Below are positions 12,001 through 56,585 of a stretch of DNA of 64,000 bases, piece by piece. The DNA is from Limnanthes douglasii subsp. nivea (taxonomy: Eukaryota; Streptophyta; Magnoliopsida; Brassicales; Limnanthaceae), in contig JAUPFV010000001.1 of NCBI GenBank assembly GCA_036936605.1, positions 314,790,809 to 314,854,808 on the forward strand. The letters are read 5' to 3'. The notes under the pieces were generated by a model that saw only the letters and a list, made by a program, of their open reading frames with translations, was not told the DNA's origin and searched no databases. A program made the translations under genes and the position numbers. Within the stretch, counting starts at the first letter, position 1. Each line of letters begins with the position of its first letter.

Positions 12001-12336
12001 GGTTAACTTCTTAGACTATTACATCAGCTTTCTCCTTAGAGAAAGCCCTCTTTTTCTGCACGACAGGTACAACATCACTCCGAATCGATAGTTTGTGAGA
12101 GATAACTCTTGCAGGCACTCCTGTTACATCACCATTGCACCAAGCAAAAACATGTTGATTGTCTGAAAAAAGGACAACAATTTCTTTTTTACCTCTGGCG
12201 CCATCTTGGAGCCAACCTTAATACTTCTACCCTCTGCCAAGGGGTGGGTTTCAACTTCTTCCACCGATATTATAACACTAGGGGCCTCTCTGGGGTCATC
12301 AATTTCACCCTCTCCCTCCGAATGCCCCAGTAACTG
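9047..12336 (-). pseudogene. pol of element B: RT, double RNase H, integrase (decayed)
   Basis: Read on the minus strand after the leaky-stop site at 12331-12342. RT is visible from about 12000 (VKKKNGKWRMCIDFTNLNR), but the active site reads YIGD near 11600, losing one catalytic Asp. RNase H connection sequence follows (YYISKSLIDAEKRYLKVEK, 11060-11120), then the second plant-type RNase H with NNESKYEAAIAGLKLAL and SDSQLL (10670-10560). Integrase has the HHCC finger, WGLDLVGPL, TTDNGP and the C-terminal region ending NIEQLRLYLE at 9047. No chromodomain is present, as expected for Tat. Many stops and frameshifts separate the blocks. Confidence 0.85.
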
Positions 12337-12342
12337 CTAATC
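12331..12342 (-). promoter_or_regulatory. Leaky-stop context between protease and RT in element B
   Basis: On the minus strand the frame reads GAT-TAG-CAG-TTA. The UAG closes gag-protease, and the same frame continues into a segment reading GEIDDPREA that is conserved with element C. UAG-CAR-YYA is the tobamovirus-type readthrough context. Readthrough itself is inferred. Confidence 0.7.
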
Positions 12343-13259
12343 TTCATTGATTCGAACTACTCCCAAAGTTTTAGGAGCAAGTGCAGTTGCATAGCACTCC
12401 CTTGCTATCTTATGACTACTTAGACAACACCCACCTGTCCTTGAACCGCATACTTCAAACACTGATGGACTGTTGAGGCCACAACATGAATTCTAGAGAG
12501 CCAAGACCTCCCAAAGATTGCATTGTAACATGTGGGGCATTCTAACACAACGAATAACGCTCTGACCAGCTTTTTAAAAGGCCCCTTACCCAACAACACA
12601 TCTTCCATAAATTCCTCGATTATATCCGCAGAGGTCCTTGTGAAGCCCACAATGGTTATGTTTGACCGTTGAATAACGACTGGATTTTTCATTTGCTTGT
12701 AAGAACTTAAAAAGAGGATGTTTGCCGAACTTCCCGTGTCTATCAGAATTCGTCTGATATCATTGCCCATAATAGATGCTCCTATCACAACAGCATCCTC
12801 ATGAGGCCCAACAATATTTCTTAAATCATCCTCATCAAAGACTATAAATGAAAAAGGGGTTTGAAACTGATAAAAAGACATACCTCCTTCCAACTGAGTA
12901 GCCACAGAGTGAACATGCCTCTTCCTTGATGAAGGAGTGGGTGCTGTCATGGTATCCCCTCAGAATATAGTGAGTGACTCAAAGAAATTAATGAGTCCCA
13001 GCACCGTCTTAGTTTGTTCTGTTATGACCCCTATTTTATTACGGGTTGGACCAGGATCCAGGTACTCCGAATCAACATCAAATCATTCAAGGATCACCAT
13101 TACCCCCTCTGGAGCAGATGTTCCCGCATTGTTCATAGGCCCAGTTCGAGGAGCATTTTCAAGCATGTTTCCACCTTTTCTTTTGATATAAGCCCCCAAA
13201 TTACCTCTTTTAATGAGATTCTGTACTTCCTGCTTCAGAGCAATGCAGTCTTGGGTGTT
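12337..13259 (-). pseudogene. gag 3' part and protease of element B
   Basis: Continuation of B's gag after nested element A. It begins in the zinc-knuckle region (HNTQDCIALKQEVQNLIKRG, 13260-13200), then the protease with active site DTGSSANILF (about 12750) and the conserved GRSWLSR block (about 12510). A one-base frameshift near 12420 precedes the terminal UAG at 12337-12339. Protease catalytic residues are intact even though the frame around them is not. Confidence 0.85.
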
Positions 13260-13264
13260 ATGGC

Positions 13265-13651
13265 TGATAAGGAAGAATAAAAGACAAGGAGAAAATTGTG
13301 AAGAAGAAACATGATAGGAGAAAATTGTAAAGAAGAAGTACGATAGGAGGAAAATGCAAAGAGGAAATTGTGTGAGGAGAAAATTGTATAAACTATCAAA
13401 GAAGTAGCTAGAATATGAAGAAAATAAGATGTAGGGACTAAAAATGTAATAAATGGGAATTAAAGCGTGTCGGGTCCGCAATTGTACTATAAAAGGACCA
13501 CACACGCTTCACAGATCCCGAGATGAATAATATATTACTTTCTCTCTCTACTTAAGCTAAGCTCCCACTTTCTCTCTCTAAAACAGCTCCTAAACAAAGT
13601 GAATTTACCTATATTGACACTAAGAGATTCTCGTATCGCATAATCACCCCC
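13265..13651 (+). repeat. 5' LTR of element A, truncated at its 3' end
   Basis: Aligns base for base with 23018-23404 (7 substitutions, no gaps). After a run of five C at 13651 the sequence switches directly into gag coding sequence, whereas the 3' LTR continues for 21 more bases to a CA end. TATA motif ACTATAAAAGG at about 13486-13496. Confidence 0.92.
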
Positions 13652-15605
13652 GGATATGGCCAAACAAAGTTTCCTGTCAGAAAAGAAGACATGGGCCCGC
13701 GAAATTCGGAGTGGCAGCATCAATATACTCTGCCATCCGAGGAAGGGCTGTACTTTCCAAGCAATGGCAATATGAGATCCAACGTCTATCGTACGAGTCA
13801 CAATTGGAGAGCTTCTCCTCTGTCCCCGGACATTTTGGTGGGAAACCTCCCAAAGCATTTCGATATCTCGAAGCTAGAAAAATTCGATGGGACGCAAGAT
13901 CCAGATAATCACATCGAACAATTCAAAAACTTCATGATTAATTTCGACGACGATGATAAGTTGCTGAGTAGAGCATTTTCTCAGACCTTCAAGGGGGTAG
14001 CTTCCAAATGGTATAATAGGCTTCCGCAGGGCTCGATAAAGAACTTCGACATGTTCTGGAATGTCTTCAGACAACACTTCGTGGGGAGCAAAAAGTTTCG
14101 AGCTAACGGAGACACGATAATCTATTGCAGACAAAAGGTTGGGGAGAGCTTGAAGAATTACACCAATCGGTTTGTCAAAACAAAAACGGACATGGAATAT
14201 TGTAAAGATTCAATGGCACTTACAGCTTTCAGGACGGGCCTACTCCCTGGATTGTTGAAGGATACGGTGGCGGAGAGTCAGGCAATGACCTTTGGAGCAT
14301 TGTTGGATCAGGTCGAGAAGATAATTCTGGTGGAGGAGACTCAGGCATCAGAGAAAGGATCCGAGATCAGTTGGATCAGAATCAATTTCAAAGATCTGAG
14401 CCGAATAGCCAAGGGCCCCGTACCAATGTTCAGGCCAAAAGTACGGGTCAATGTCCGCCGAGGCAGAAAATGAACCCACAATACTATGGCAACCAGCAAA
14501 ATTACAATCAAGGAACAAGACCCATGTCGAATAAGTGGGTTCGACCAGACTATTTTGCGGAGTTGACGGAAAATGTTGCCGCTATATTTGACAATGCGAG
14601 ATCTACAGTACCATTCAGGAAGCCTTTTCCTATACAGACTCCGAGGGAAAGTAGAAGCGTTAATAAGTATTGCAAGTATCACGAGGATATTGGGCACAAT
14701 ACCAAGGACTGCATAGCTTTGAAAAAAGAAGTGCAAGCTTTGATCGAGAATGGAATGTTGTTAGAGTATGTCAAAAAGTACTCCCAGAAGAACGATGTGG
14801 TGAAAGCTGTCCCAAAGAACACTGACACAGTCATGGTAATATCCGAAGGGGTCGACGATTTTGACATTGAACATGAATATTTGGATCCCAAGGAGAGGAG
14901 GAATAATGTGAATATGGTGGAAGAGGTTATTCCGAGGGGGAGGGTGAATAGCCTTTGTGCTTTCTTCGATTCACTAGCAATCTTTGGAGGAGACACTATT
15001 GCGGGAAATTCCAATAGCTCGCGAAAGAGGCACATGGTCAACCTGACTACCCAGATCGAAGCAGGGGGTGTCAACACAAATGCACCGATTACCCTCCCCC
15101 ATCATTTGTTTTGACGACGATGATATGCGAAATGTTGCAGGCCCGCATGAGGATGCGGTGGTGATCACCGCGGGCATCGTTGGGGATCAAGTTCAGAAGA
15201 TACTTATCGACAAAGGGAGCTCAGCGAATATCTTGTTTATGAACACTTACAGGAGAATTTCTGACCCACCAGTTATCCGACAGAACTATAGTGGGTTTTA
15301 CTGGCGCCACAGCAGTGGTAGTGGGAGAGTTTTAGTGTGTGGTCGAGTTGGGCCGTGGGCCATTCAAGAAAGAGTTGGAGGTATTGTTCATTGTTGTTGA
15401 CGCACCGACTTCGTATAATGCTATTCTGGGCCGTTCTTGGTTGTCCCGAATGCATGGTGTAATTTCAACGGTACATCAATGCTTAAAGTATGTGGTAGGA
15501 AACAATGTCGGGATAATCAGAAGTAGCCAGAAAATGGCCCGAGAGTGTTACCAAATAGTGTTATCCTCGAAGGGAGTTCGAGGAGAAGGGTCAAGCAAAG
15601 CATAG
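13652..15605 (+). pseudogene. gag-protease of element A (N-terminally deleted, frameshifted)
   Basis: The reading frame starts inside gag at the deletion junction. The gag core is clear (13691-14470): WRASPLSPDILVGNLPKHF, FDDDDKLLSRAFSQTFKG, KWYNRLPQGSIKNFD and FWNVFRQHFVGSKKF. The last motif has Arg where elements B and C have a TGA. The zinc-knuckle region reads YCKYHEDIGHNTKDCIALKKE (14670-14735). Protease has ILIDKGSSANILF near 15205, with Lys replacing the Thr of the D-T-G triad, so it is probably dead. Frameshifts occur near 14400, 15090 and 15350. It ends at UAG 15603-15605 in the leaky context. Confidence 0.85.
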
Positions 15606-15611
15606 CAGTTA
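15600..15611 (+). promoter_or_regulatory. Leaky-stop context between protease and RT in element A
   Basis: GCA-TAG-CAG-TTA. The frame upstream (15339-15602) and the pol frame downstream are the same, so only the UAG separates them. CAG-TTA fits CAR-YYA exactly. Confidence 0.75.
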
Positions 15612-18600
15612 AAGGGGTCTCCCTTCGAAGTCATCCCATGTGATGATCCGAGGGAGACACCCGGATTTCTGGTCCCGGAAGAAGATTCCGAGGCACATGA
15701 ATTTGAGAGTGGAAAATCTTTGAAGATCAGAGTAAAACTTCCTTTTGAGTTCAGAGCGAGATTAATTGCATTTTTATCTAACAAACTTGATACGTTTGCT
15801 TGGTGTGCACAAGATGTCACGGGAGTAACACTAGAGGTCATACGTCATAAACTTGCGGTACGACTCGATATTAGACCCATTGTCTAGAAGAGGAGGCCCG
15901 TTTCCCTGGAAAAGGCTACAACTATTCTTTTGGAAGTGGAGAGGTTATTAAGCATAAACCATATTCGTGAGTTGCATTATCCTGCTTGGGCATCGAATCC
16001 GGTCCTAGTTAGGAAAAAGAATGGCAAATAGAGAATGTGTGTCGACTTTACAGATTTAAACAGATCTTGTCCCAAAGATTCGTTCCCGGTACCACGTATT
16101 GATCAGTTAGTAGATTTGACTTCAGGTAATAGATTGTTATCCTTCATGGACGCGTATTCTGGGTACAATCAAATCCGGTTGGACGTTCATGATGAAGAAA
16201 GTACTTCGTTTATTACCAGGAGAGGATTATACTGCTACAAAGTTATGCCATTCAGTTTGAAAAACGCGGGGGCAACTTATCAACGCTTGGTCAACAAAAC
16301 CTTTGAGGACCAGATCGGCAGGAACATTGAAGCATATATTGATGATATGTTAGTCAAAAGTTTGCGAGACGAGGATCACTTCGCTGACCTGGAAGAGACT
16401 TTCAATAATTTGAGTAAGGTCAACCTGAAATTGAACCCAGAAAAGTGTATTTTTGGGGTGTGATCGGGTAAGTTCCTCGGATATATGATCAGTGAGAGAG
16501 GTATTGAGGCTGACCCGGATCAAATAAAGGCTTTACTCACTATGACACCACCTCGAAATATCAAGGAATTCCAAATCTTGACAGGGAGATTGGCACCATT
16601 GAACAGATTCATTTTTCGATCCTCGGACAAATGTGCACCTTTCTTTAAAGTACTACGCAATGCCAAACAATTCCATTGGACTGATGAGTGCTCAGAAGCT
16701 TTTCGTAAAATTCAAGAATTTTTGATATCCACTGATATTCTGTCTAAACCATTGGTGGGGGAAAGATTGATTATCTATGTAGCAGTGTCCGATTGTGCGG
16801 TCAGTGCTGTTTTACTTCGCGAGGAAGAGTCTCTTCTGAAACCCATCTATTATGTCAGTAAGAGTTTGTTGGATGCGGAAAAACGATATCTTAAGTTAGA
16901 GAAGGTAGCTGTGGCTTTGGTAACGGCGGCCAGAAAGATGAGACCTTACTTCCAGGCACATCCTATAGTAGTTCGGACGACTTTTCCCTTAAAGGGTCTG
17001 TTACAGAGGCCTGGTATCTCTGGAAGAATGACTAAATGGTCAGTAGAACTAGGAGATTTTGACATAACATTTGAGCCTTGAATGGCGACAAAAGCTCAAG
17101 TCTTACCTGATTTTTTGGTCGAATTCCATTCGGACAGAGAGGATAAAGAGGTCGGTGATCATGTTGATGAGACAAAATGGTTGGTATGAACGGATGGTGG
17201 GTCGAAAATTTCTGGAAGTGGGGCGGGTGTCCAGTTGATTTCTCCAGAAGGAATAGCTATGTTCCAAGCTATTCGATTTGGGTTCAAGACAACCAACAAC
17301 GAAGCAGAGTATGAAGTTGCGTTAGCGGGTTTGCGTTTAGCTCACATATGTGGGGCCAAAAAGGTTAAACTATTCAGCGATTCACAATTGGTGATAAACC
17401 AAGCCTCGGGAGAGTCCGAGGCCAGAAAAGATAAGCTGATACAGTATTTGAAAGCATTAAAGATTTGGTATCCGAATTTGAGGAAGTAAAGTATGAACAT
17501 ATTCGAAGAGAATCAAATGTTGTCCCAGATTCTCTGGCATCCGCCTCACGAACGGAGGGATATCCTTGGGTTTTGATTCAGGAACATCCTTTGATCGTGG
17601 TTGATGCAGAGCAAGCAATGAACGTTAACGATGAAAGTAATGTGGTCACAGACGATTGGATGGCAGGTATCATCGACTTCTTAGAAAACGATACTTTACT
17701 TGTCGAAAAGTACGAGGGTAGGAAGATCAGGTTCAAGTCCCATGGGTATATCATGCTGGGAGGCGTGCTGTATAAAAAATCTCTGAGTCGGCCATTATTA
17801 AGGTGTCTGAACAAGGATGAGTCGCAAATCATCCTGTCTGAATTGCACGATGGGGAAGGTTCTGCCCATTGCGGGTACAAGGAATTAATTCGACGAGTGT
17901 TTCTGGCTGGTTACTATTGGTCGACTATTGCTTCAGATGCAAAAGATTTAGTAAAATGATGTGACACGTGTCAACGCTATGCCACTGTGATCCATAAGCC
18001 TGGGGTATTCTTAGAGAGTATTTCCGAAGCAGTCCCGTTCGATAGGTGGGGCATTGATTTAGTCGGGCCTTTACCAATGGCATCCGGTGGCAGGCAGACC
18101 ATCATTGTAGCAGTGGATTACTTCTCTAAGTGGGTAGAAGTGGAACTATTAGCGGGAACAAAGGCCAAGGATGTGATCAAGTTCGTTGTGTCAAACATTT
18201 GCTGTCGTTTTGGCGTACCATTGCAAATCACAACGGATAACGGACCTCAGTTCGATAACAAGGAGTTCAAAAGTTTTTGTGTTTCCAGGGGCATACGACA
18301 ATGTTTTTCTGCCCCATTTCACCCTCAAGCTAATGGGCAAGTGGAAGTGACTAATCGCATGATTCTCGATGGTTTGAAAAAGAACTTGGAAGGAAAGGCG
18401 GGAAAATGACATGACTACTTGCAGGAAGTATTGTGGGCTTACAGAACAACTCCACGAACGGCCACTGTTGTATCTCCATTTTCCTTAGTCTACGGAATGG
18501 ACGCCATTGTCCCCCCAGAGATTGTTTTCCCCTCACATCGTGTGGCAACATATACAGCAGACACGAATGACCAAAGCAGAGCACTGGCTTTAGACTTGGT

Positions 18601-23425: not shown

Positions 23426-23430
23426 AGGGC

Positions 23431-24843
23431 CAATATCATTCTGATATTGGAAAAAATAAGTATATTGACTGTCCTTGGGAGACTACAGTGCTGCTGGTTT
23501 TCGGAAATGGACTTCATCCTTGGTCTTGTCATAAATTGTGGCCACATTCTCTTTTAATTCTGCAAAGCACTCCGGTTGAACCCACAGACCTCTTTTACTC
23601 ATTGACTGCTGACTCTGAGATTGATTTTGGTTGGATTGAGCCTGCTTATCCCCGTTGGACCTTTGTCCGATCTCTTTAGCCTTATACCCAGACTGGTTTT
23701 GGTTTTGAGCTATTGGGGTGGACCTCACCTGACGGTGCACCCTGTTTTTCTTGGTTTCATCCACGTTAATCTACTTTCCCACCTGATTTAACAAGCCACC
23801 CCAAGTCATGGCCTTCTTCCTTATTATTGAATCGACAAGATTCCCAGGGTTCAACCCTTGTCTCAAAGAAGCAATTGCCACCTGTTCGAAGCAATCTTCT
23901 AACCCATTCTTGGTATTTACGAACCGACTTATGTAGTCCTTTAAGGACTCATTTGCATCTTGGGCACAATGGATGATAGTATTTTCATCCTTACTTCCCA
24001 TAAATTGCCTTCAGAAGGCAACCCATAATGTATCAAAGTTTTTGATACATCCTTGGGGTAAACTGTTGTACCACTTAAGAGCATTTCCCGTAAAATATTG
24101 GGAGAAGTCTATACACAGAATTTTGTCATCATCATCAAAATTCATCATGAAGTTCTTAAACTTCTCTAGAAGATTGTCCGGATCTTTCCTCCCATCATAC
24201 TTCTCCATTTCGAACTGTCAAACCTTTTGGGTATGTTTCCAAACAGTATCTTGGCAGACAATGGCGATTGTCTCCAATTCCTATAACGACTGAAGACTGT
24301 GTCTTCATTAGGCATTGCAAAGATACTTGGTTCGTTCTGAAAAGCAAAAGGATCAATCAGCAACTGATCCACATACCTGTGACTGTGGCTGTGAGATGAC
24401 CCTTTGCCCAGATGCCTTTTAAGTCTCCCATGCATATCTCTCTTTCTCGAATATTTTTTAACTAGTTTTCGTTTCTTCTTGGAGCCCCCTTCATCACTGA
24501 TCGATGCAAAAAACTCCTCAAGCTCAGCCTCGTTCGAAGAGCTGTTAGAGGACTCAGAATCTGAACTTTCAACCGGCTTGGACCGGTGAGTCTTCTTAGA
24601 ACTGACATGGGTCTTCTTTAAACTCAAATAAATCTTTGCCGATGGATGATTATCCCTAGGATTGTCAGTATGATGGATGGATGACGCCTTTGACTTCTCC
24701 TTTATACCCATTTCTGCTTGTTTTATGGCCCTCAACGCCTCTATTTCTACTCTTAACTTGTTTCGCTCTTCGATGGTGTATTCTTTGTTTTCCCCAACTA
24801 CCTCCACCACAGGTGGTGGATTTGGTTTCTTGTTCGGATCCAT
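23431..24843 (-). pseudogene. gag 5' part of element B
   Basis: Starts at ATG 24843 (MDPNKKPNPPP). The N-terminal region is highly charged, with EIEALRAIKQAE, Ser-rich and KKKRKLVKKYSRKRD segments like those of C. The gag core follows (RNWRQSPLSAKIL, FDDDDKILCIDFSQYFTG, KWYNSLPQGCIKNFD). A frameshift lies near 24200. A TGA at 24011-24013 follows WVAF, at the same codon as the TGA in element C. The frame resumes immediately afterwards (MGSKDENTIIHCAQ) and runs to 23771. The zinc-knuckle region begins at 23440 and is cut by element A. Confidence 0.85.
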
Positions 24844-24895
24844 CTGAACAAGTCTTTTCTACTGGTTTTAAATGCAAGATTCAGGCACCGTCTTC

Positions 24896-42488: not shown

Positions 42489-42958
42489 TGATGAGTCCGA
42501 ATTCGGAGTGCTCCCCGGAAGGGCATCCCAAAGTAAATCTCTCCGTAAACCGGACAGACTCCAAGAGCTTAATTCGGACAGGACTTTTGAATCGGACAGA
42601 TGACTTCGAACACTGCAAATCTAAAGCAGTTCGAACTATGACTAAAGTACTAAAATACCTAAACACTATCTGACTAAGCTACCTGCTCATCTACTTAAAA
42701 CTCATGGGTCTTTAAACATGACCCGTGTCCATTAAACTTGACCCAAAAGCCCATAAGGGCCCAAACTACATACTATAAATACCCAACCACCAGCATTAAC
42801 TATGGGTAACAAAAATTTATTGCTGCCAAGCTGCTCAATTCTCTCTCCACCTTGAAATATCTTGAAACACATTTACACCACCCTGAAACACCCTCACGCC
42901 GCCTTAAAACTCCACTTGAAATTACCAGCCTACCCTCAGGCTACTTTTATCCTCACCA
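42489..42958 (+). repeat. 5' LTR of element C
   Basis: Starts TGATGAGTCCG and ends CCTCACCA. TATA motif CTATAAATACCC at about 42773-42784 would start the genomic RNA. It is identical to the 3' LTR except at five sites. Confidence 0.96.
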
Positions 42959-43032: not shown

Positions 43033-45382
43033 ATGAATCCGGATAATCCAGAGCTTCCACCAGCTTTGCTCGAAGTGGTGGAAGAGAATGATGAGTATAC
43101 TGTCCAAGAGCGCGACAGGTTAAAACTTGAGATAGAAGCTCTGAGGGCTGAAAAAGCCAAGATGGGCGTGAAAGAGAAATCCAAAGCATCAGCTGCTCAC
43201 CACACCGATAACCTAAGAGAGCATGGGGTTTCCAAAACTCATGAGAGCACCAAGAAGACGCATACCAGCTCTAAAAAATCTCACCGGTCCAAGCCTGTGG
43301 AGAGTTCTGACTCGAGTTCAGAGTCTTCGGACAGCTCTTCGGACAGTGAGGGAAATGAAAAGTCCTTGTCCTCTAGCAGTGATGAGGGACGAACCAAGAA
43401 GAAACAAAAGCAAGTTAAGAAGTATTCCAGGAAAAGAGATCACCATGGAAGAATGAAGAGGCATATAGGAAAAGGGTCATCTCACCACCGGAGGTATACA
43501 GACAAGATGCTGATGGATCCTTTTGCCTTCCATGATGAGCCAGGTATCTTTGCAACTCCTAATGAGGATACCGTGTTCAGTCGTGGAAGGAATTGGAGGC
43601 AGTCTCCACTGTCTTCTAAAATCCTATCCGGAAACCTCCCCAAAAGGTTTGATAGCACCAAGATGGAGAAGTATGATGGCAGTACTGATCCGGACAATCA
43701 TCTGGAGCAATTCAAGAACTTCATGATGAACTTTGATGATGATGATAAACTACTTTGTAGGGCATTCTCCCAGTCATTTACGGGGAGTGCTCTGAAATGG
43801 TACAACAGCCTGCCTCAGGGTTGTATTAAAGACTTTGATACTTTTTGGGTGGCCTTTTGAAGGCAGTTTGTGGGAAGTAAGGAGCTGAAGGGCAATTGAG
43901 ACACAATAATCCATTGTGCCCAAGAGCCAAATGAGTCGTTAAAGGAGTACATAAGTCGTTTTGTAAACACAAAGAAGGAGTACATAAGTCGTTTTGGCTG
44001 CTCCGGACTACCCCAACCTGCCCCTGAGACAAGGTTTGAACCCAGGCAACCTGGCCGATTCGGTGACCAGGAAGAAAGCCATGACCTGGGGAGGATTGCT
44101 GAACCAAGTTGGCAAGCAAATAAATGTTGATGAAACAAAAAAAACCAGGGTGCACAAACAAGTGAGATCCACCCCGGTGGCACCAACTCCAAATCAAAAC
44201 CAGTCCGGGAACAAAGCAAGAGAAACCGGACAAGGGCATGGGAGGGGAAAGGCTCAGTCTCAACCAGCTGCTCCTGCACAAAGTCAACAGTCTAGAAACA
44301 AAAGAGGGCCGTGGGTCCAACCGGAGTGGTTTGCAGAGCTCAAAGAAAGTGTGGCAACCATTTTCGAGAAAACAAAAGATGAAGTACACTACCGGAGACC
44401 GGCAACCTTGCAGTCTCCCAGAGAACATCGAAATAATTCCTTTTGCCAACACCATAATGATATTGGCCATACCACCGATGATTGCATAGCGCTGAAACAA
44501 GAGGTACAGAACTTGATTGAAAGAGGAAAGTTGGGTGCATACGTTAAAAGAAGAGGAGGCAACAGGCCTGACAACACTCGTAGGGTTGGTCTAAGCAACG
44601 CTGCCCCGGAGGGGGCTATGGTAATAGTTGAAAGGTTTGACGTGGAGTCCGAGTATTTGGATCCTGATCCAACCAGAAACAGAGTGGGTTCTATTGAGGA
44701 GCGTTCTAGATCAGTCTCCGGGCTCATTAAATTCTTCGAGTCACTGACAATCTTCGGAGGGGACACTATGACAGCTCCTACCACCTCTTCAAGAAAAAGA
44801 CATGTTCATAATTTGGCCTCCCAGTTAGAAGGAGGCATGACATCCTATCAATCTCCAAACTCGTTCCCATTTATAGTTTTTGATGAGGATGATTTGAGAG
44901 ATATTGCTGGCCCTCATGAGGATGCTGTTGTCATAGGAGCGTCTATAGGGGGCAATGAGATAAGGCGAATTTTGGTGGATACTGGAAGCTCTGCCAATAT
45001 CCTTTTTCTGAACACTTACAAGAAAATGAGAAATCCAGCTGTGATACAAAAGTCGGATATATCAATCGTGGGCTTCACGGGCAGCTCAGCCGATGTGATC
45101 GGGGAGTTTGAAGAAGAAGTGTTGTTGGGCAGGGGCCCTTTCAAGAAAATGGTTAGAATACTCTTCATCGTGGTGGATTGTCCCACCTGTTACAATGCTA
45201 TTCTAGGGAGATCATGGCTCTCTAGGATGCATGCAGTGGCTTCGACAGTCCATCAGTGTCTGAAATATGCTGTTCAGGGGCAGGTTGGGGTAGTCCGGAG
45301 CAGCCAAAAAGTTGCAAGAGAATGTTATGCCACTGCCTTGGCTCCACGAACGCTGGGGGCAGTCCGTATAAATGACCAATAG
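43033..45382 (+). pseudogene. gag-protease of element C
   Basis: Starts at ATG 43033 (MNPDNPELPPALLEVVEE). A charged N-terminus with a short coiled coil and Ser-rich and Lys/Arg-rich parts precedes the gag core (RNWRQSPLSSKILSGNLPKRF, FDDDDKLLCRAFSQSFTG, KWYNSLPQGCIKDFD). TGA stops occur at 43858-43860 and 43897-43899. A scar at 43977-44025 shifts the frame from 1 to 2. The frame is then open to 45382. It includes CQHHNDIGHTTDDCIALKQE (zinc-knuckle region, 44447-44505) and the protease with an intact DTGSSANILF (about 44977-45006) and GRSWLSRMH. The terminal UAG is in the leaky context. Gag core function is virus-like particle assembly; protease cleaves the polyprotein. Confidence 0.9.
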
Positions 45383-45388
45383 CAATTT
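45377..45388 (+). promoter_or_regulatory. Leaky-stop context between protease and RT in element C
   Basis: CAA-TAG-CAA-TTT. Upstream and downstream frames are identical and both open (43994-45379 and 45383-48670). It fits CAR-YYA except for the last base (T for A). Readthrough would give Gag-Pro-Pol from one RNA. Confidence 0.75.
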
Positions 45389-48300
45389 GAGGGCCTTTCT
45401 GGGGCTGAGGGTGAAATTGATGACCCCAGAGAGACCCCCGGAGTGTTGATCCCAGTTGAGGAGGTTGAAACACACTGTTTAGAAGAAGGAAAAAATGTCA
45501 AGATAGGATCCAAAATGCCACCAATGTTGAAAGAAGGAATGTTGAAATTCTTGAAAGACCATCAGCATGTTTTTGCTTGGTGCAATACTGATGTTACTGG
45601 AGTTCCATCAAAGGTGATTTCCCATCACCTGTCAGTCCAGAGAGATGTGGCACCAGTGGTACAAAAAAGGAGAGCTTTCTCAAAAGAAAAGGCTGACGTC
45701 ATTGTACAGGAGGTTGACAGACTCACAAAGATGGGGCACATTAAAGAATCTCAGTACCCGTTGTGGACTGCCAATCCTGTCTTGGTAAAAAAGAAGAATG
45801 GTAAATGGCGTATGTGCATTGACTTCACAGACCTCAATCGAGCTTGTCCAAAAGACTTGTATCCGGTTCCCCGGATAGACCAGTTGGTAGACTCTACTTC
45901 AGGGAACAAGTTACTCTCCTTCATGGATGCATTCTCCGGGTACAATCAGATCCAAGTGGATCCAAAAGATCAAGAGCATACCACTTTTGTTACTGATAGA
46001 GGTTTACACTGTTACAAGGTGATGCCCTTTGGTTTGAAAAATGCTGGGGCTACTTATCAAAGGTTGGTCAATAAGGCATTTGCTGGTCAAATTGGAAGAA
46101 ATATGGAGGTTTACATTGACGATATGATGGTGAAAAGCGTGGATGAGCAATTGTACTTGTCCGACCTCCAAGAGACTTTTGCCAACTTTGCCAAAGTGAA
46201 TTTAAAGTTAAACCCTGAAAAGTGTGTGTTCGGAGTGCAGTCCGGGAAGTTCTTAGGGTATATCATAAGTGAGCATGGAATACAACCCGACCCGGACCAA
46301 CTCAACGCTTTGTTCCAAATGGAGCCTCCTCGAAACATTAAAGAAGTACAGCGATTAACGGGGAGGTTGGCAGCTTTGAACAGATTCATCTCCAGGTCTT
46401 CGGACAGATGTGCTCCATTCTTTCAAACCTTGAAGGGTGCAAAGGGGTTTGAATGGACACCACAGTGTGATGAGGCATTCAATGAAATCAAGAAGCATCT
46501 GTCCTCTCCCAAGACCTTGTTTAAACCAGTCGATGGGGAGACTCTTTTTGTATATCTGGCTGTTTCAAGTTGTGCCATCAGTGCTGTGTTAGTAAGGGAG
46601 GTTGATGGGTATCCTCACCCAGTGTATTACATCAGCAAAAGCTTGATTGATGCTGAGAGGCGTTACTTAAAACTTGAAAAACTAGCTTTGGCCTTGGTGA
46701 TAGCTGCAAGAAAAATGAGACCCTACTTCCAGGCTCATCCTATCGTTGTCCGGACATCTTTCCCTTTAAAGAATGTCCTTCAAAAAGCAGACATTTCAAG
46801 CAGAATGACAAAATGGTCAGTAGAGTTGGGGGACTTTGACATAGACTTTGCTCCTCGGACAGCAGTAAAAGCTCAAGCCGTGGCTGATTTTCTGGTCGAA
46901 TTCCATTCTGACAGGGATTCAGAACAACCTGCTGATTCAAAAGACAAAAAAGTGTGGATTGTCCGAACAGATGGAGGATCCAGTACCATGGGATCTGGGG
47001 CAGGAATATGTCTCACTTCCCCCTATGGGGACAACATGTTCCAAGCTATTTGTTTTGCTTTCAGGGCATCCAATAATGAGTCCGAATACGAAGCAGCTAT
47101 AGCTGGGTTAAAATTGGCATACATCTGTGGAGCAAAAAGGGTCAAGCTACTAAGTGACTCCCAATTGCTTGTCCACCATGCTCTGGGCCTGTCAGAGGCC
47201 AGAAAGGAGCAATTGATTAAATACTTGCTCCTCCTTAAAAATGAAGCGTCAAAGTTTAAAGCTGTTGTCTATGAGCACATCCCCCGGGTAGAGAATGAAT
47301 TAGCAGACTCACTGGCAACGATTGCATATACGGAGTCCTACCCATGGATCCATGTGCTTGAAAGCCATTCTATTCAACTTGATGAAGGTGAAAAAGAGGA
47401 AGTCTTTGAAATACAAGTAAACCGGCCTCAAGACTGGAGGTCTCCTCTAATGCAATATCTGTCCGATGGCATTGTGCCCTTGGATAAATCACAAGCCAGA
47501 ACATTGAAACACAGGGCTCGTGGTTTCATTATGATTAGAGAAGTCTTGTACAAAAAGTCCTATAGCAAACCTCTCCTACGCTGTTTAGGGGATTATGAGT
47601 CACAAATGGTTCTCTCTGAATTGCATGATGGTGAGGGATCAACCCATTGTGGATTTAGAGCTTTGACAAGAAGAGTGCTTCTCTCCGGATATTATTGGCC
47701 ATCAATTATGAAAGATGCTAAGGAGCTGGTAAGGAGGTGTGACCCATGTCAGAGGTACAGCAATGAAATTCATGTACCAGCTATTCCTTTGGAATCAATT
47801 TCTGAACCCATCCCTTTTGCTCGATGGGGATTGGACTTAGTTGGGCCTCTCCCTGTGGCGTCCGGAGGGCGTAAAACCATAATTGTAGCCATTGACTACT
47901 TTTCGAAGTGGATAGAAGCAGCACCCTTGGCAGGGACGACATCAAAAGATGTTATAAAATTCATTCTGTCCAATATATGTTGCAGATTTGGTGTCCCCCA
48001 GAAGATAACAACAGACAATGGGCCACAGTTTGATAATAGAGAGATGGAGAGCTTCTGTGCCTCAAGGGGTATTCAGCATTACTTTTCTTCACCTTTCCAC
48101 CCACAGGCCAATGGGCAAGTTGAGGTGGCTAATAGAACAATACTGTCCGGCTTAAAGAAAAACTTAGAAGGGGCTGCTGGGAAGTGGCCTAGTTATCTAC
48201 AAGAGGTCCTGTGGGCCTACCGGACAACACCTGGGGCTGCAACACAAGAATCCCCCTTTGCCTTGGTTTATGGGATGGATGCAGTAGCTCCCATAGAGAA

Positions 48301-48670
48301 GACACTCCCCTCCTTTCGTGTTCATAACTTCTCCGGACAGGCTAATGAGATGACAATTAGAAATCAACTTGATTTAATTAAAGAAAGGCGGGTAAAAGCT
48401 CATCTTAGAATGGCACATTATCAAGGCTTGATGAGAAGCAGATTTGCTTCTAAAGTTAAAAGAAGGGATTTTCAACCAGGAGATAAAGTATTGAGAAAAG
48501 TTTTCTTGCATACCAAGGAAAAGCTCTTCGGAAAGCTGGCCCCAACTTGGGAGGGTCCGTATACTGTGGTTGAAAGAATCAAGCCTGGGACATACTGGTT
48601 GGAAGACAAAGATGGCAGGGTTTTAACTCACCCTTGGAATATTGAGCACCTTCGAATGTACTTGGAGTAA
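45383..48670 (+). CDS. pol of element C: RT, double RNase H, integrase (intact frame)
   Basis: Open for 1,095 codons after the UAG. The first Met at 45443 is not needed if readthrough is used. RT has KKKNGKWRMCIDFTDLNRAC, FMDAFSGYNQI and the active site YIDDMMVKS (about 46107-46140). The first RNase H/connection follows (YYISKSLIDAERRYLKLEK). The second plant-type RNase H has catalytic residues in TDGGSS, SEYEAAIAGL, SDSQLL and NELADSLA. Integrase has the HHCC finger (HCGFRALTRR to CDPCQRY), D-D-E in WGLDLVGPL, TTDNGPQFDN and HPQANGQVEVANRT, then a C-terminal domain ending NIEHLRMYLE. There is no chromodomain, and the double RNase H is the Tat hallmark. It acts in particles and the nucleus to copy and integrate the element. 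No lesions seen. Confidence 0.95.
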   Translation, partial: QFEGLSGAEGEIDDPRETPGVLIPVEEVETHCLEEGKNVKIGSKMPPMLKEGMLKFLKDHQHVFAWCNTDVTGVPSKVISHHLSVQRDVAPVVQKRRAFSKEKADVIVQEVDRLTKMGHIKESQYPLWTANPVLVKKKNGKWRMCIDFTDLNRACPKDLYPVPRIDQLVDSTSGNKLLSFMDAFSGYNQIQVDPKDQEHTTFVTDRGLHCYKVMPFGLKNAGATYQRLVNKAFAGQIGRNMEVYIDDMMVKSVDEQLYLSDLQETFANFAKVNLKLNPEKCVFGVQSGKFLGYIISEHGIQPDPDQLNALFQMEPPRNIKEVQRLTGRLAALNRFISRSSDRCAPFFQTLKGAKGFEWTPQCDEAFNEIKKHLSSPKTLFKPVDGETLFVYLAVSSCAISAVLVREVDGYPHPVYYISKSLIDAERRYLKLEKLALALVIAARKMRPYFQAHPIVVRTSFPLKNVLQKADISSRMTKWSVELGDFDIDFAPRTAVKAQAVADFLVEFHSDRDSEQPADSKDKKVWIVRTDGGSSTMGSGAGICLTSPYGDNMFQAICFAFRASNNESEYEAAIAGLKLAYICGAKRVKLLSDSQLLVHHALGLSEARKEQLIKYLLLLKNEASKFKAVVYEHIPRVENELADSLATIAYTESYPWIHVLESHSIQLDEGEKEEVFEIQVNRPQDWRSPLMQYLSDGIVPLDKSQARTLKHRARGFIMIREVLYKKSYSKPLLRCLGDYESQMVLSELHDGEGSTHCGFRALTRRVLLSGYYWPSIMKDAKELVRRCDPCQRYSNEIHVPAIPLESISEPIPFARWGLDLVGPLPVASGGRKTIIVAIDYFSKWIEAAPLAGTTSKDVIKFILSNICCRFGVPQKITTDNGPQFDNREMESFCASRGIQHYFSSPFHPQANGQVEVANRTILSGLKKNLEGAAGKWPSYLQEVLWAYRTTPGAATQESPFALVYGMDAVAPIEKTLPSFRVHNFSGQANEMTIRNQLDLIKERRVKAHLRMAHYQGLMRSRFASKVKRRDFQPGDKVLRKVFLHTKEKLFGKLAPTWEGPYTVVERIKPGTYWLEDKDGRVLTHPWNIEHLRMYLE

Positions 48671-49139: not shown

Positions 49140-52124
49140 TTAAGGTTGAGCCTTTGAAGATGGCTCACCCTCATCTTTTTTCTTGCCCTTGATGTCGCTC
49201 CTCTCCTCGACAATCTTCTTACCTTTGGGGTCAATCTCCTCCTCACCTGGGCTCTCCCCGGTTTTCTCTTCGTCACCAGACGAGGACACATCGGTGTACC
49301 CTTCATCAACCATGGTCCAATATGGGAGATCATCGTCATCCACATAGCGCCATAAGTCCCCTAGTCTCCTCTTCGGGAACTTCTCGTGAAACAGGAGGAC
49401 CATATCGAACTTCACCTTTTCGATCATTAATTCTTCACTCCGTATCATCTCCCTGGCATAAGCATTGATTTTGGCCTTGATCATGGCCTCTTGATCCTTC
49501 ACTAAAGCATCTTTCTCTTCAACAGCCCGGTTCACTGCATTCTCTAAGGCAAGTTTGTCAGTGGTCAGATTGGTGACAAGCTTCTCCTTTGCTGCAGTCT
49601 CCCCTCTTGAGGCTGTCAAGTCCTTCTCTAGTCCGGACAGCTTAGCCCGGAGATCTTTTACGGTCTCTTCTAAAGAAGCAACTTTTTTGCTGCTTTCATT
49701 GTGATTCTTCTTTAGCTGTTCGTTCGACTCCTTAAGCATATCAACCTTAGTAGCAGCAGTCCTGAGGTCATCGGACAACTTCTCCTTCTCAGACTTGAGG
49801 TCTTTGATGGTGGTTGCCTGACTTCGGACTTGCCTTTCCAAAGTAAGTACTGGCTGCACGTTGCTAAGGAGAGAATGGGCTATGATGTCCCTCTCACTGG
49901 AAACCATAAAAGTCTTACCATTGAAGTTCACTGTGTTGGAACTACTTGGGGGAACATATGGCCCTGCGAATTCATCTCTGGACAGGCCAAGGAAATAATC
50001 ACCTAGTTCACCAAGACCGGTGACGTCCACTTCATCCATGTTAATCTCTCCCCTTTCGACCTCATCAGTATGGAATTCCATTGGAATCCCTTCATTAAGA
50101 TTCCCTGGGATCTCTTCGGCTAACGTCGGGTCAGTTGGGAAAGTGGGCTCCGGATCCTGGAGAGCGAGCTCTTCTCCTTGGGAAGTCTTTTTCTTTTTAA
50201 CTTCCCTGTCAGCACTGTCACTTGCTTGCTTACGGACCCGTTTCGAAGCCCTTGACGGTTTTGGGGGATTCACTCCTTGTTTCTCGCCCTCCTGTTCTAC
50301 CACCTGTAGAAGGTTTGCATCAACTTGAACCTCGGCTGGCACCTCTGCGTCTGTTGGGGCCTCTTTCTCAGTATCCTCTACCGCTTTCCTGCATTTCTTC
50401 TTCTTGCCCTTCATTTTACTTGGGGCTTTGGCCCGGGCAGGAAGGAAGAGGGTCCCATCCAGTTCGTGAGACCTTCTCAGCACAACATCTTCATCAGGTG
50501 GGGTGTAGAACTCCTCCCAGGTTAATTCTCTTCGACCTGTGGTGTTCCACAGGTGAGATCTCGCTAGGTTTCCAGGAGTGAAGGCTTTATGAAACCGGTT
50601 CTCCCAGTTCTCTGCGGCCCAAGCGTTGAGCTTGCCACAGGTGACCTGTCCGGCCTTCAGATAGTCCCCGAACTCCTTTGGCAGCTCTGACAAAACAAAA
50701 GAAAAACTGATTAGTATAAACTTAAAGGAAAGAGAGGTTCGAACAGAGACTTAGAATAAAAGCTTACGATCGCTCCTCCATCTACTTCGAAGTAGGCTAG
50801 GATTCTCCCCGGTTTTAATTTTCTTGCCATTCTCCCATGAGCCACTGACGAACAGGAACTGGCTCCTCCACTTGCTCTCCGACTCCAGGAGATCGTCAAC
50901 AGCTTTAAGATCATTCCCCATGTTGAAATGGTAAAAGGGGAACTGATGGTGTTTGCACAAGTTAGCCACAGCTGCAAACTCTTCCATAGGAAGAGGAATT
51001 CCGGATAGCCTAGACGCCATAATACATGACATCAAGGTGTACCAACCGTTGGGGCTTAGCTGTGTTGGACATAGCTTGACCAAATGAAAATAGCGCACTA
51101 TCTCTGGGTCCAGTGGGAACCTAAGTCCCCAGTTGAATAGCTCCGTAAAGAAGACTATCTCATTTCTTTTGCAGTCCATCGGGGTCTCTGGATCGATGAG
51201 AATTCGAATCTTTACATTCTCAGGGATCCCCCACTTAGTACGCAGTCATCCCAGATCTCTAGTATGAATGAACACATACTTGGTCTTTAACAGAGATAAA
51301 AGATATTTGAACTCTACCTTGTGAAAGCAGGGCCCTACTCTCCCTTCGAGGCTCTCCGGCAGGTTCGGACGCCTCAGATACAAATCCTCTTTGCCCTTCT
51401 TAGCAACAACTATAGCAGTTTCAGCTTGTCCGGAAGACTCGGACTCAAACCTAACCTCCTCAGTGGAGTCTTCCATCCTCTCCTCCATTATTGTTGGAGG
51501 AGCTTCTGCAGAAACAGCCCGGGGAGGGATGAAGCTTGGCACAGCTGATCCTCCGGACTGTTGGCTCTTTGTATGTTTTTGAGTTCTCACCTCAGTCTGA
51601 GTTTCTGAGGTTGAAGTTTCCTTGGGGGGTAGTGGGCTGCTAGCCTCCGGACCAACCGGCCTTTCCCGAAGAGTCCTAATAGTTGCCCCGGACCCTGATT
51701 CACTATTTTTCGCCCCCGATTTTGAGGGTGTACTTTTAGAAGGAAGCCCTTTAACCAATCTACTTGGTCTTTTCATGATTAGTTTATCTGGAGAATGGTC
51801 GGAGTCGGACCCCATAGCAATGAAAGTGGATTTTTTCCTAACACTTGTGACAGTGACCCCGGGTTCGACAATAGGGATCGACTCTTGGACTGGAGAGCCA
51901 GATACTATGGGGCAGAGCGTTGATTGAAAGAGTTTTCTAGGTTTTGTACCTTTAGAAGAAGATGAACCTCGGTCAGATTCTTCGATTGAAGGGGCTGGTT
52001 TCTCGACAGGCGACGCTGGAAGCCCTGCTGCAAGTCTTTTCTCTTTTTCAACCTTTTGAGCTTTCTCCAATTCTGAGAGATTAAGCCAACCGCCCTTGAT
52101 CAGTGCTGTTCTTGCTGTGAACAT
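49140..52124 (-). pseudogene. Antisense gene of element C (putative gypsy-type transposon protein), one stop from intact
   Basis: Starts at ATG 52124 (MFTARTALIKGGWLNLSEL). Exon 1 52124-50768, GT-AG intron 50767-50687 (81 bp), exon 2 50686-49140. The spliced frame is 2,904 nt, 967 codons plus stop. Domains in order are a Ser/Pro-rich N-terminus (1-285), a PF04195-like core (about 295-450) with FNWGLRFPLDPE and CPTQLSPNGWYTLMSCIMAS, and the LPKEFGDYL / NWENRFHKAFTPGNLARSHLW block (454-500). Basic stretches that could enter the nucleus (about 600-620), a coiled coil (about 725-880), FHEKFPKRRLGDLW and an acidic tail follow. A TGA at 51248-51246 falls where an Arg codon would fit (LG-stop-LRTKWGIPE) and is the only lesion. 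Antisense genes of this type are reported in Tat elements; their role is unknown. Confidence 0.82.
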
Positions 52125-52218
52125 AAACAACTAAGGAAATTTTTAGGTTTTAGAGAGATAAAGCTTTGGGTGAAATGGCAAAGTTAAAGAGATAGTGAGA
52201 CTGTGAAAGGTGAAAAGA

Positions 52219-52553: not shown

Positions 52554-53023
52554 TGATGAGTCCGAATTCGGAGTGCTCCCCGGAAGGGCATCCCAAAGTA
52601 AATCTCTCCGTAAACCGGACAGACTCCAAGAGCTTAATTCGGACAGGACTTTTGAATCGGACAGATGACTTCGAACACTGCAAATCTAAAGCAGTTCGAA
52701 GTATGACTAAAGTACTAAAATACCTAAACACTATCTGACTAAGCTACCTGCTCATCTACTTAAAACTCATGGGTCTTTAAACATGAACCGGGTCCATTAA
52801 ACTTGACCCAAAAGCCCATAAGGGCCCAAACTACATACTATAAATACCCAACCACCAGCATTAACTATGGGTAACAAAAATTTACTGCTGCCAAGCTGCT
52901 CAATTCTCTCTCCACCTTGAAATATCTTGAAACACCTTTACACCACCCTGAAACACCCTCACGCCGCCTTAAAACTCCACTTGAAATTACCAGCCTACCC
53001 TCAGGCTACTTTTATCCTCACCA
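52554..53023 (+). repeat. 3' LTR of element C
   Basis: 470 bp, preceded by polypurine tract AAAAAAGGGGCTCC (52540-52553) and followed by ATGAT. Five differences from the 5' LTR. Confidence 0.96.
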
Positions 53024-53845
53024 ATGATGAGTCAAATAACACTACTGTTATTGGAGATCGAACTCCTCTTGCAACCACCAATGGTTAAGGTCGTGCTGTT
53101 AATGAGACCCCCCGATTAAGGATGTTAGTGTTGGCCACAAGGCTTCTAATTTTATCAGTGTTGTGAATGGTGGTGGTAGTAAAGAAGATGATTTTGGAGG
53201 GGTGACCACTGCAATATATATGGGCATAAGGTCTTAACTAGGTCCCTCGTCCATAGAGTAACCATATATGTCTGGACATGCCAAGCCCTTTCTCTTTATG
53301 TACCATTAATTTAAACAATTCTAAGAGCTCACCTATTATAATAATATCTTCATAGCAGACATTCTCCATCACCAATTGGAGTTGGCAATGGATGTTAGCT
53401 TATATTCCAATATTAGGACAGAGTTCAACTGGTTAACAAAAAAAATAAATGACGCAAAAAAGGAATGGACCAATCGTGCTGCTAAAGCTTACACTAATAG
53501 AGAAATGGATACAATGAAGATTGCTCAACATTTTCCAAGAGAATGTTAAAAAATATAACATCACAGAGTTATAGAAGATGAACCCTGATTTAGAGTTGGG
53601 AAAACTAAAATAGTTAGTCTCTGAAGACGAACGAACATGGGAGATAGATAACGAGGAATATGAGGAGGATTAGTGAAGAAATATTCAATACTGGCGAGGG
53701 GGTGCCTGGTGATGCTAAGGAGTCAGCTGATAAAGATAACACTTTGGTCGACACCAAAGGGCCCCAAAACAACATTTCGAAAGAGAGCGAACCTGTGAAC
53801 GAGGATAACAATAATTCTTGTATGAAGGATGACTGCCTGGAATAG
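53024..53845 (+). pseudogene. Antisense gene of element H, 3' part
   Basis: Resumes after element C. NDAKKEWTNRAAKAYTNREM at about 53450-53510 corresponds to the end of the coiled coil in the A and C antisense genes (compare DEEKDKVVNAYAAKC of A). An acidic tail open to 53845 follows (KESADKDNTLVDTKGPQN). Stops and frameshifts throughout. Confidence 0.6.
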
Positions 53846-54579
53846 TTGTATATATTTTATCTTTTCTTTTAATTAAAACATGGTGTTTTTTGAATAATGA
53901 ATAAACTTTTGATCTTTTACACATTTTGAACAAGTAATATTTTACTACTTTTGGAATATAATGTAGAATGGTTTTTTGACGAAGAATATGTGTTGAAATA
54001 CTAACTTTTTTTGTATTTGAATAAGATTGGGGGAGTTGTGGCTCTTTATTTAAGCACAATTCGGCTTATTGCGAGGCCACCTAGGCTTAGAGTATTAACT
54101 AGTTTGCATATTGGGCTTGATAAGCCCATGCTCAATATGGCCTATAACATGGTCTTAAAGAATGACAGTTGTGTCTGATTTCTTAATTGGGCGCTGTCTC
54201 TCGAGCTCAATATGCCCCATAGCGTAGCCTTATAGGATTGGTTTATAAAACTAGTTTGATTTTTGTTAACTATTTTAGTGAGGGCTAAGTGTGACCCATT
54301 ACGTAGCCGAATCAGAGTGTCTTATTTTTGTCCGTTCACATTTATATTTTTGGCGGACCCTTTTTTTTGGTATGTTGTAGTTGATATGTTGCTTACGGAG
54401 ATTTGTATTCCTTTTATTGTTTAGTAAGTTTTGTTATTATTATTTTAATATAATAGTTAACAAATAAAATTTGGCAAATACAGATTTCATTAAGTTCTTT
54501 CACTTATAATGTACCTCATTAAAAATCCTTAAGCGTCACCAAAAGGGAAAAAAGAATGCACATCTACTCTAAGTGACAT
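53846..54579. other. Gap between convergent genes of element H
   Basis: Corresponds to the pol to antisense-gene gap of A, B and C. It holds loosely repeated GGCCTAT / CTCAATATGCCC segments around 54070-54240 and no coding sequence. The CCTTGG hairpin of B and C is not found here. Confidence 0.5.
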
Positions 54580-56579
54580 GAAGATACATTTTCAAATGAT
54601 CAATATTCCAAGGATTCTTTAATGCATTATCATACATGTCTTCCAATTTGTATGGCCCGTGGTGTCTTTTTTACTTTGTACAGACCATCACAGTCGGAGG
54701 CTAGATTTATCTTGAGCTTGGTGGAATATTTTCTTTAAGACTAGTTCGCCCACTTTGAAGCTTCAAAGTTTGAATTTGGATTTAAACTGACTTCTCATCA
54801 AACTTTTGCAGTGCTGTTATCGAACCCTTTCTTGGTCTCATCTCTCCTCAATCAGGTCGACGAATAATTGTCACTCTTCATCATTTAGGTCCTCTAAGTA
54901 GTTTTCTATGTGATAGCTCAGAATTATGATCTCTGCTGGTATAAAAACCTCCATTCCATATAGTAAAGAGAAGGGTGTATCTCCAATGATCGACCAGAGT
55001 GTAGTTCGATATGCCCATAACAACTCGACGAGTTTGTCTGGCCATTTCCTTTAGAGTTTTCTAGTTTTTTCTTTAGCCTTACCAGAATTGTTCAATTCCT
55101 AACGTCAATCTGTCCATTGGCCTGTGGGTAGTACGGTGTCGAGAAATGCTGAGTTATTTCATGCCGCCGAAAAAATGTTGTTACGATGGCATCTCAAAAC
55201 TGTAGCCCATTATCGGTCATGAAGATTCCTGGGATTAATAATTTGGAAAGGACCCAATTCATCATAAAATCATATATCTTTTGAGCCCTTGTTCTAGACT
55301 AAGTCTTTGCCTCGACCCAATTCGTGATATAGTCCATTGTCATTACTAAATATTGTTGTTTTCTCGTGGCCATAAAAAAAGGTCAAACTAAGTCTATCCC
55401 CAATTTGTTGAATGATGATGGTATGGGGATGACAATTATTGGTTCACTCGGTATATAATGTTTGTTAGCGAACTGTTGGTAGAAGTGACATCTCTGTACG
55501 AGAGCTTGCGCGTCGACCGCCAGCTTGGGCCAGTAGAATCCTGCCAGTACTAATAATACTTTTGTATCCATGGTGCATACTGGCCTCTCCTTGATGCATA
55601 TCAGTTAGGATCAGTTTTGATTTTTTTGTCGACGCAGTACAACAGTTTTTGGGTAGCACTTTTCCTATACAATATATTATCTAAGAGTGTGTATTTAGAC
55701 GCACTACCTGTAGAGATCTCGCCTCCGCTTTATTCATGGAGAGGGTTTGGTTTTGGAGATATATGACATATTTATCCCTCAAGTCAGTGTTTGTTGTTAT
55801 TGCATGTACCTTTAGTACCTCTATACTTGCTGTCACCGTCAGATTGTCTTGGGTGATGACCATAGGGTTTTCAAATTAGGTAGTCGTTTTGGTGAGTAAA
55901 TCTACAATAGAGTTATCAAACCAAGGTATATAATTGTACTTGACATGGTGTAACTTTCATTTCCATACCTTTAAGGCCTCGAGGTACCCCTGTTTGATTT
56001 CTTGTTTATTCTTAAAGTACCCCTTGGTTTGACGAATGACTGACTGAGAGTCAAATCAGACGAGTAATTTTTTGAATCTGTAGATGTGGGCTAACTTTAG
56101 ACCCCTAACATAGCTTCATATACGCCACTGACCATTCGTGTTTTTAACTAGAACGGGTTTCTCTATCCACGTCAGGTATTTGGCCTACTAAATGTGCTCA
56201 AGCTTGATTAGTTTGTCTACATCTCTAAAAATTTCCTCCAATTTCTATGAGGAAAAAGTCCATCGCTTCTGTGGTATTGGTCGGATTTTGTCTTCGATGG
56301 CCAATGAATGACATATGACTCCCGAATTGACCCCAACAACCTTTTTGGCATTCCATGCGAATATATCTTTGTTTTTTTTTGCAACATTGCTATCAATTTG
56401 TCTTTGAACAAAGGGTTGACTTTATAACCTACTCGGACGACCTTGCTTTCTTACAACATGATACAAGGTTATTCTCCGAGAGGGTCTTCTTCCCTTTCAT
56501 CCTCTCCGGGATCATCTATTTCGAGGTAGGTGAGTTTGGTTTGTCCCTAATGATCCGTGGCCCCCGAGCTTGTTAATTG
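54580..56579 (-). pseudogene. pol of element H (heavily decayed)
   Basis: On the minus strand after the UAG at 56580-56582 comes an EIDDPGED segment shared with A-C. RT is reduced to scraps. RNase H-like FDSQSVIRQTKGYFKNKQE-type sequence lies near 56000-56060. The integrase zinc finger is visible at 55640-55470 (HQGEASMHHGYKS, then CHFYQQFANKH), then LGIDLV, NGLQF and TPYYPQANGQIDVRN near 55110-55220, and an NPWNIDHLKMYL C-terminus near 54600. Stops and frameshifts are numerous. Confidence 0.7.
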
Positions 56580-56585
56580 CTATTG
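56574..56585 (-). promoter_or_regulatory. Leaky-stop context between protease and RT in element H (exact tobamovirus match)
   Basis: On the minus strand CAA-TAG-CAA-TTA, identical over 12 nt to the classic tobamovirus readthrough site. Upstream is the protease frame (ends at 56580); downstream, the frame leads to the conserved IDDP segment. Confidence 0.75.

Follow-up and report, generated by a model that had tools for sequence, protein, structure and literature searches.

A conserved UAG codon between protease and reverse transcriptase in Tat retroelements of Limnanthes douglasii is a likely site of programmed amber readthrough

We analyzed a 64,000-nucleotide stretch of the Limnanthes douglasii subsp. 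nivea genome (contig JAUPFV010000001.1, positions 314,790,809 to 314,854,808 of the forward strand; hereafter the window) that carries four retroelements of the Tat group of Ty3/gypsy, named A, B, C and H. In each of them a UAG codon stands between protease and reverse transcriptase (RT), and we conclude that in these four families it is likely to be a programmed amber readthrough site (probability roughly 0.85). Stop identity, stop position and the next codon have been kept across families with saturated silent sites, and pol beyond the stop is under purifying selection, which fits programmed readthrough of UAG. At the UAG most ribosomes would terminate and release Gag-protease; a small minority would incorporate an amino acid there and continue to Gag-Pol, with the enzymes made in small, measured amounts. 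In the A and H types and part of B the signal would be UAG with CAR-UUA behind it, in the C family and part of B UAG with CAR-UUU, and a predicted stem-loop with a GC-rich core 8 nucleotides (nt) downstream may assist readthrough. This conclusion extends no further than to those Tat families of this genome whose copies were read.

The first-pass annotation of the window had given a codon string for each of the four junctions, and all four strings were found in the sequence:

15600-15611, plus strand: junction of element A, GCA-TAG-CAG-TTA (sequence read)
15603-15605, plus strand: UAG of A (sequence, tblastn frame, other A-family copies)
15606-15611, plus strand: hexamer CAGTTA after the stop of A, fitting CARYYA (sequence read)
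12342-12331, minus strand: junction of element B, GAT-TAG-CAG-TTA (sequence read)
12337-12339, minus strand: UAG of B (sequence, tblastn frame, other B-family loci)
12331-12336, minus strand: hexamer CAGTTA after the stop of B, fitting CARYYA (sequence read)
45377-45388, plus strand: junction of element C, CAA-TAG-CAA-TTT (sequence read)
45380-45382, plus strand: UAG of C, between the protease and the pol frame (sequence, frames, C-family loci)
45383-45388, plus strand: hexamer CAATTT after the stop of C, CARYYA except for the last base (sequence read)
56585-56574, minus strand: junction of element H, CAA-TAG-CAA-TTA (sequence read)
56580-56582, minus strand: UAG of H (sequence, tblastn, H-type family columns)
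56547-56549, minus strand: second in-frame TAG of H, 30 nt past the first (sequence read)

In tblastn with the two frames of C, the protease end and the pol start fall in the same frame in A (frame 3), in B (frame -2) and in C (frame 2); in H the protease frame (-3) enters the TAG in phase. For A, B and C this agrees with the first-pass description of a single frame around the stop. The two stop-to-stop frames of C adjoin at the TAG, and no further stop occurs across their 1,559 codons. Since they are open on either side, the TAG is the sole break between the gag-pro and pol frames of this element, as the annotation had stated. Other in-frame stops were counted in the codons alignable to C: 10 in A, 13 in B and 17 in H, where TAAs follow in frame beyond the second TAG. 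Because of these extra stops and a disruption of the C gag near 43860-43988, none of the four elements is whole. The parts of C are as follows:

42489-42900, plus strand: 5' long terminal repeat (LTR) of C, at least this length (LTR comparison)
43988-45382, plus strand: gag-pro frame of C, 464 amino acids (aa), C-terminal gag part and protease, ending at the UAG
45383-48670, plus strand: pol frame of C, 1095 aa, with RT, RNase H, a second RNase H-like domain (RVT_3) and integrase (Pfam)
52554-52965, plus strand: 3' LTR of C, at least this length (LTR comparison)

Element C is a young insertion, with LTR copies 98.8% identical (5 mismatches in 412; length at least 412 bp), a pol frame of 1,095 residues and only the TAG between gag-pro and pol. 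Seven Pfam families matched its pol at E <= 0.001, in the domain order RVT_1, RT_RNaseH, RVT_3 (at 534-646) and rve, and a chromodomain was absent among these seven. A second RNase H (aRH) is a mark of Tat according to the available part of PMC6317226, and the C pol shows the arrangement RT-RH-aRH-integrase without a chromodomain that defines membership of this Ty3/gypsy group. The domain scan covered the pol of C, and A, B and H were assigned to Tat through their similarity to C.

To follow the stop beyond the window, copies were searched in the source genome (1.78 Gb, 633 contigs). The protease ends of C, A and B were used as queries, and the best 150 scored matches of each were considered; each set is limited to the closest copies, those of the window itself among them. 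The stop was TAG in all of the 30 best C-family loci (window C among them). Loci picked along the ranking of the best 150 gave 19 TAG and 1 TAA in 20 other A-family loci and 11 TAG and 1 TAA in 12 other B-family loci. For the B family, 7 TAG and the TAA were read via a script landmark and 4 TAG by eye (L154, L155, L157 and L161, with a one-base length change or the landmark missing). The H-type set consisted of 49 old copies from 150 listed (29 loci and 20 more, the window copy excluded) and had 23 TAG, 13 TAA, 9 other codons and 4 gaps at the site, that is, TAG or TAA in 36 of the 45 alignable copies; CAG was present in 1 of the 49. A frame fused to pol would have about 1,900 aa, and no open frame longer than 871 (C), 921 (A) or 821 aa (B) was present among the protease matches listed. 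Instead, stop-to-stop lengths recurred: 785 aa in 44 of the best 150 matches for C, and 893 aa (30) or 884 aa (15) among the best 150 for A. Past the stop, the frame continued for 60 codons or more in 17 of the 20 other A-family copies. The stop is a family property in this genome, beyond chance, in line with the earlier judgement that chance agreement between the four elements was very unlikely.

The bases following the stop are conserved as well. The type I readthrough signal is UAG-CAR-YYA, known from tobamoviruses (PMC5382211 and PMC3542737, both available in part). CARYYA directly follows the stop in window A, B and H and in 19 of the 20 other A-family copies, which have CAATTA; the remaining one has AAATTA. 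The C family has CARTTT in 29 of the 30 loci and CATTTT in one, and the 12 B-family copies, with the shifted ones read by eye, have CAGTTA (5), CAGTTT (3), CAATTT (2), TAGTTT (1) and CAGTTG (1). A tandem TAG TAG followed by TTT was seen in the B-family copy L158. The first-pass annotation had proposed to compare the stop and the next six bases with other columns of a junction alignment. For the H-type copies of this genome, the A and T columns of AA-TAG-CAATTA were 84-93% like H, and the 31 other columns shown were 0 to 88% like H, with a median of 63%. The G column (58%) and the C column (53%) were less well kept, with losses mainly from G to A and from C to T or A.

The 12-mer CAATAGCAATTA occurs 549 times in the genome and the reversed string 228 times, which likewise speaks against chance. 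Of its sites, 48 were read (8 loci, plus 40 taken from the first hundred places in the list, which lie on a single contig), and 30 of these have the end of a Tat protease upstream. Similar flanks are shared by five of the 18 sites outside Tat (L106, L109, L111, L133 and L144), so another repeat family seems to share the CAATAGCAATTA 12-mer.

Selection on pol could be followed past the stop. Among A, B and C, nonsynonymous change (pN) in pol was 0.14-0.28 and silent change (pS) 0.75-0.84, meaning that silent sites are saturated. Since pol is conserved at this distance, we take it that the lineages were functional while they diverged, and the simplest assumption is that they then had the UAG. 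Within the A family, pS was 0.43 and pN 0.11 over codons 1-95 past the stop (16 of 21 sequences, retained for 90 open codons and DD at codons 13-14). Silent change in this family was minimal right past the stop, with a pS of 0.25 in codons 1-20 versus 0.48 in codons 21-95 (the lowest of 15 overlapping windows), and between B and C it was also lowered past the stop (0.40 versus 0.89).

Four other explanations of the stop have to be weighed against readthrough. Splicing could take the stop away, as is reported for the Tat group Ogre, some of whose transcripts lose an intron that covers the protease-RT junction. The Ogre intron is reported in pea and Medicago (PMC6317226, available in part), and weak frame-keeping GT-AG pairs do span the UAG in A (donor 6/8) and B (7/8), a point in favour of splicing. 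In C, however, no frame-keeping pair (donor at least 6/8, acceptor tract at least 9/15) spans the UAG within 700 nt and the frame is open on both sides, so that splicing is unlikely for C as judged from its sequence. Moreover, coding constraint in the A family begins directly past the stop, and the conserved bases there are not needed for splicing, which leaves splicing as an improbable explanation for the families as a whole. Pol could also be made by stop and restart, through reinitiation or internal entry at a Met past the UAG; indeed, the first in-frame Met is at codon 45 in both C and B. Window A, however, has no Met in its first 90 codons, and restart leaves unexplained both the conservation of UAG with CAR-UU and the A-family constraint right past the stop. 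We therefore consider restart very improbable.

Alternatively, copies with the UAG might lack a Pol of their own and be spread by an element lacking the stop. This could apply to the decayed H-type copies with several stops, and a helper was sought in the protease lists only; there, none of the 450 listed matches (closest copies) was in a fused frame, and A, B and C share a strongly conserved pol beyond the UAG, so that non-autonomous spread seems highly improbable. The last alternative is decay: deamination at methylated CHG sites would have turned CAG into TAG in dead copies, and the elements would have the stop in common by chance or because of a hotspot. The pol regions of A and B have two TGA codons in common where C has CAG (codon 750) and CGG (codon 956), perhaps deamination hotspots; hotspots can thus yield shared stops, and shared stops alone prove little. 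But decay would predict a sense codon in most intact copies, and the opposite was found in the copies read, many of which have open frames around the TAG of the C, A and B families, and C itself has no other stop in its two frames. Among the 49 old H-type copies, TAA is found in 13 and CAG in a single one, so loss moves away from TAG. CAG deamination as the source of the stops was rejected on the family counts (C, H-type, A and B), and decay is hardly credible.

Readthrough at the UAG may be assisted by RNA structure, since folding of the region past the stop suggests a stem-loop:

15614-15662, plus strand: predicted stem-loop of A, nt 9-57 past the stop (fold z -3.8)
45391-45437, plus strand: predicted stem-loop core of C, nt 9-55 past the stop; weaker pairs extend outward, and the 3' arm lies over the DDPRE codons (folds)
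12276-12332, minus strand: predicted stem-loop of B, outer pair at nt 5 and GGGG core at nt 9 past the stop (folds)

The fold of the 100 nt past the stop had a z of -3.8 in A, -1.8 in C, 0.3 in B and 0.9 in H, and the junction fold of A had the lowest z among 216 windows of that copy. Of the 21 A-family sequences, whose mean z is -2.96, 17 have an extended stem that begins at nt 9, and in the H2 type a start at nt 9 was found in 6 of 17. We also used an anchored-stem test, in which the start is fixed at nt 8-10 and p is obtained against 300 dinucleotide shuffles. This gave p values of 0.003-0.013 in five A-family copies, 0.010-0.023 in three C-family copies, 0.037 in B and 0.003-0.07 in five of six chosen H-type copies. 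The B family served as a fresh test once the start window was fixed: p was below 0.05 in 8 of 11 copies, the twelfth having no landmark, and the window B copy had p 0.065 in this test. The failures L157 and L161 have a one-base length change, so their offset was misread by one base; the failure L156 has no length change. The 3' arm overlies the DDPRE codons in A, B and C and lies just ahead of them in H2-type copies. Taken together, these folds predict, for A, B, C and some of the H-type copies, a stem-loop with a GC-rich core from 8 nt past the UAG. Its combination with the tobamovirus-type hexamer into a two-part signal of Tat retroelements, with a type II-like stem-loop whose core lies 8 nt on and which was kept while the stem letters diverged between families, is put forward tentatively, as something that may well prove wrong. 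If this holds, a whole group of plant repeats would have its ratio of Gag-Pro to Pol set by such a signal.

Several results weigh against readthrough at this signal and against its stem-loop in particular. The UAG-CAR-YYA context claimed in the first-pass annotation holds for A, B and H of the window, with C off by the last base, but all 30 C-family loci depart from it in this last base, and UUU or UUG replaces UUA in 7 of the 12 B-family copies. The drop in silent change past the stop is absent for A-C (0.68, 0.71) and A-B (0.85, 0.73). As to the stem, the start window of nt 8-10 was picked after inspecting A, and window H and L147 have no anchored stem (p 1.0). Only A and part of the H2 type show the nt 9 start clearly; in C and B the core begins at nt 9, but the stem of lowest energy already begins at nt 5, and 26 of 30 single-sequence folds of C are paired from nt 1 onward. 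The junction fold ranks 56 of 176 windows in B and 13 of 276 in C. Covariation analysis with RNAalifold gave no support for the stem (21 A, 30 C, 31 C and B, and 17 H2 sequences). With fixed-structure counts, covariation within the A family was not above shuffles (18 of 21 sequences, 13 distinct, after 3 with length changes were dropped), and that of B and C together exceeded shuffles on some measures only (39 B/C sequences, 25 distinct; 4 of 13 B-type sequences dropped for a one-base shift or a missing landmark). Finally, a first pair at nt 8-10 does not by itself separate Tat (14 of 30) from non-Tat (5 of 18) sites with the same 12-mer.

The first-pass annotation had extended amber readthrough to Tat elements in general. 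What stands of this is the conserved stop with its position, next codon and selection on pol in the families read here. For all Tat the claim is too wide, given the reported splicing of Ogre and the single long proteins among relatives: 72 of 120 listed protein relatives of the C pol have at least 1,560 aa, with gag-pol in one protein, although gene models may hide introns. In single-frame relatives the residue at the stop site was unreadable by alignment, as the linker is too variable. Gag-pro frames ending at the site gave 31 matches in the protein database, none of them close, and stop identity is not visible in these entries. No DNA relatives were found in the viral contig collection. Three far relatives (31-32% identity) in bacterial bins of genome contigs were not used.

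Two further observations concern the surroundings of the junctions. Between its pol and its 3' LTR, C has three antisense frames (536, 164 and 294 aa; window positions 49140-52130, minus strand), and Retand elements are described with antisense frames at this place (PMC11963269, the part available). A further Tat gag stretch, 65-82% identical to the C gag, is located at 23429-24849 (minus strand), and no protease-RT junction was matched for it in the window.

How plant Ty3/gypsy elements control the ratio of Gag to Pol has been little tested, and with a UAG retained by almost all copies read from three diverged families, these elements would represent a non-viral readthrough system in plants. 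Experimentally verified plant readthrough up to 2009 was all viral, and the candidates include rice gypsy-type retrotransposons, for which RIRE2 (Ohtsubo 1999) is cited (PMC2754532, available in part). A figure legend of PMC1142308 names RIRE2 together with Tat4-1, Cinful-1 and Grande1-4. The readthrough idea had already been raised for rice gypsy-type elements, and what is added here is a second, predicted part of the signal, the stem-loop. The available part of PMC6317226 states that some groups split the polyprotein into two open reading frames and names the Ogre intron in this context; it does not mention a conserved stop in Tat groups other than Ogre. The summary of Gao 2003 in the accessible part of PMC5009743 contains no case of Tat readthrough, and the words readthrough, read-through and UAG are absent from a 2025 survey of Retand (PMC11963269). 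Our literature search, which covered few subscription papers and some sources in part, found none in which Tat elements are connected with a UAG-CARYYA site or with a stem-loop, and none describing a composite signal of hexamer and stem-loop for any retroelement. The site is also a warning for annotation, because elements with one in-frame stop here may be counted as dead though they are not. New insertions of RLG_Wilma in wheat have a mean of 1.4 in-frame stops versus about 0.3 in two other families (PMC9744471, available in part); a programmed stop is a candidate explanation for part of these.

Among known systems, the rice gypsy-type elements such as RIRE2 are likewise gypsy-type plant retrotransposons named as readthrough candidates, whereas the present site was followed through four families and many copies and has a predicted stem-loop. 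The tobamovirus replicase shares the UAG and the CAR codon with all four families, UUA with the A and H types and part of B, and AA ahead of the stop with the C and H types; the H string CAA-UAG-CAA-UUA is the same 12 bases as the tobacco mosaic virus site in the primers of PMC2754532 (in its available part). In contrast to tobamoviruses, our site lies in a retroelement, separates Gag-Pro from Pol, ends in UUU in the C family and part of B, and has a stem-loop predicted in addition. The type II viral signals of alphaviruses, tobraviruses and furoviruses have a stem-loop about 8 nt past the stop, like the one predicted here, but it accompanies UGA followed by CGG or CUA (PMC5382211 and PMC3542737, same parts). 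Such a UGA context was not found in A, B, C or H, and the stem, here a prediction, extends inward of 8 nt in B and C. The protease of gammaretroviruses is located past the gag-pol stop, whereas the Tat protease precedes it. The gammaretroviral gag-pol is likewise a retroelement gene in which UAG is read through for Pol (type III in the table of PMC3542737), with UAG-G and a compact pseudoknot as its signal. Finally, Ogre is a plant element in which Gag-Pro and Pol are split at the same place as here, but it is reported with a partly spliced intron (PMC6317226, in part), while for the families of this genome the UAG itself is likely to be read through.

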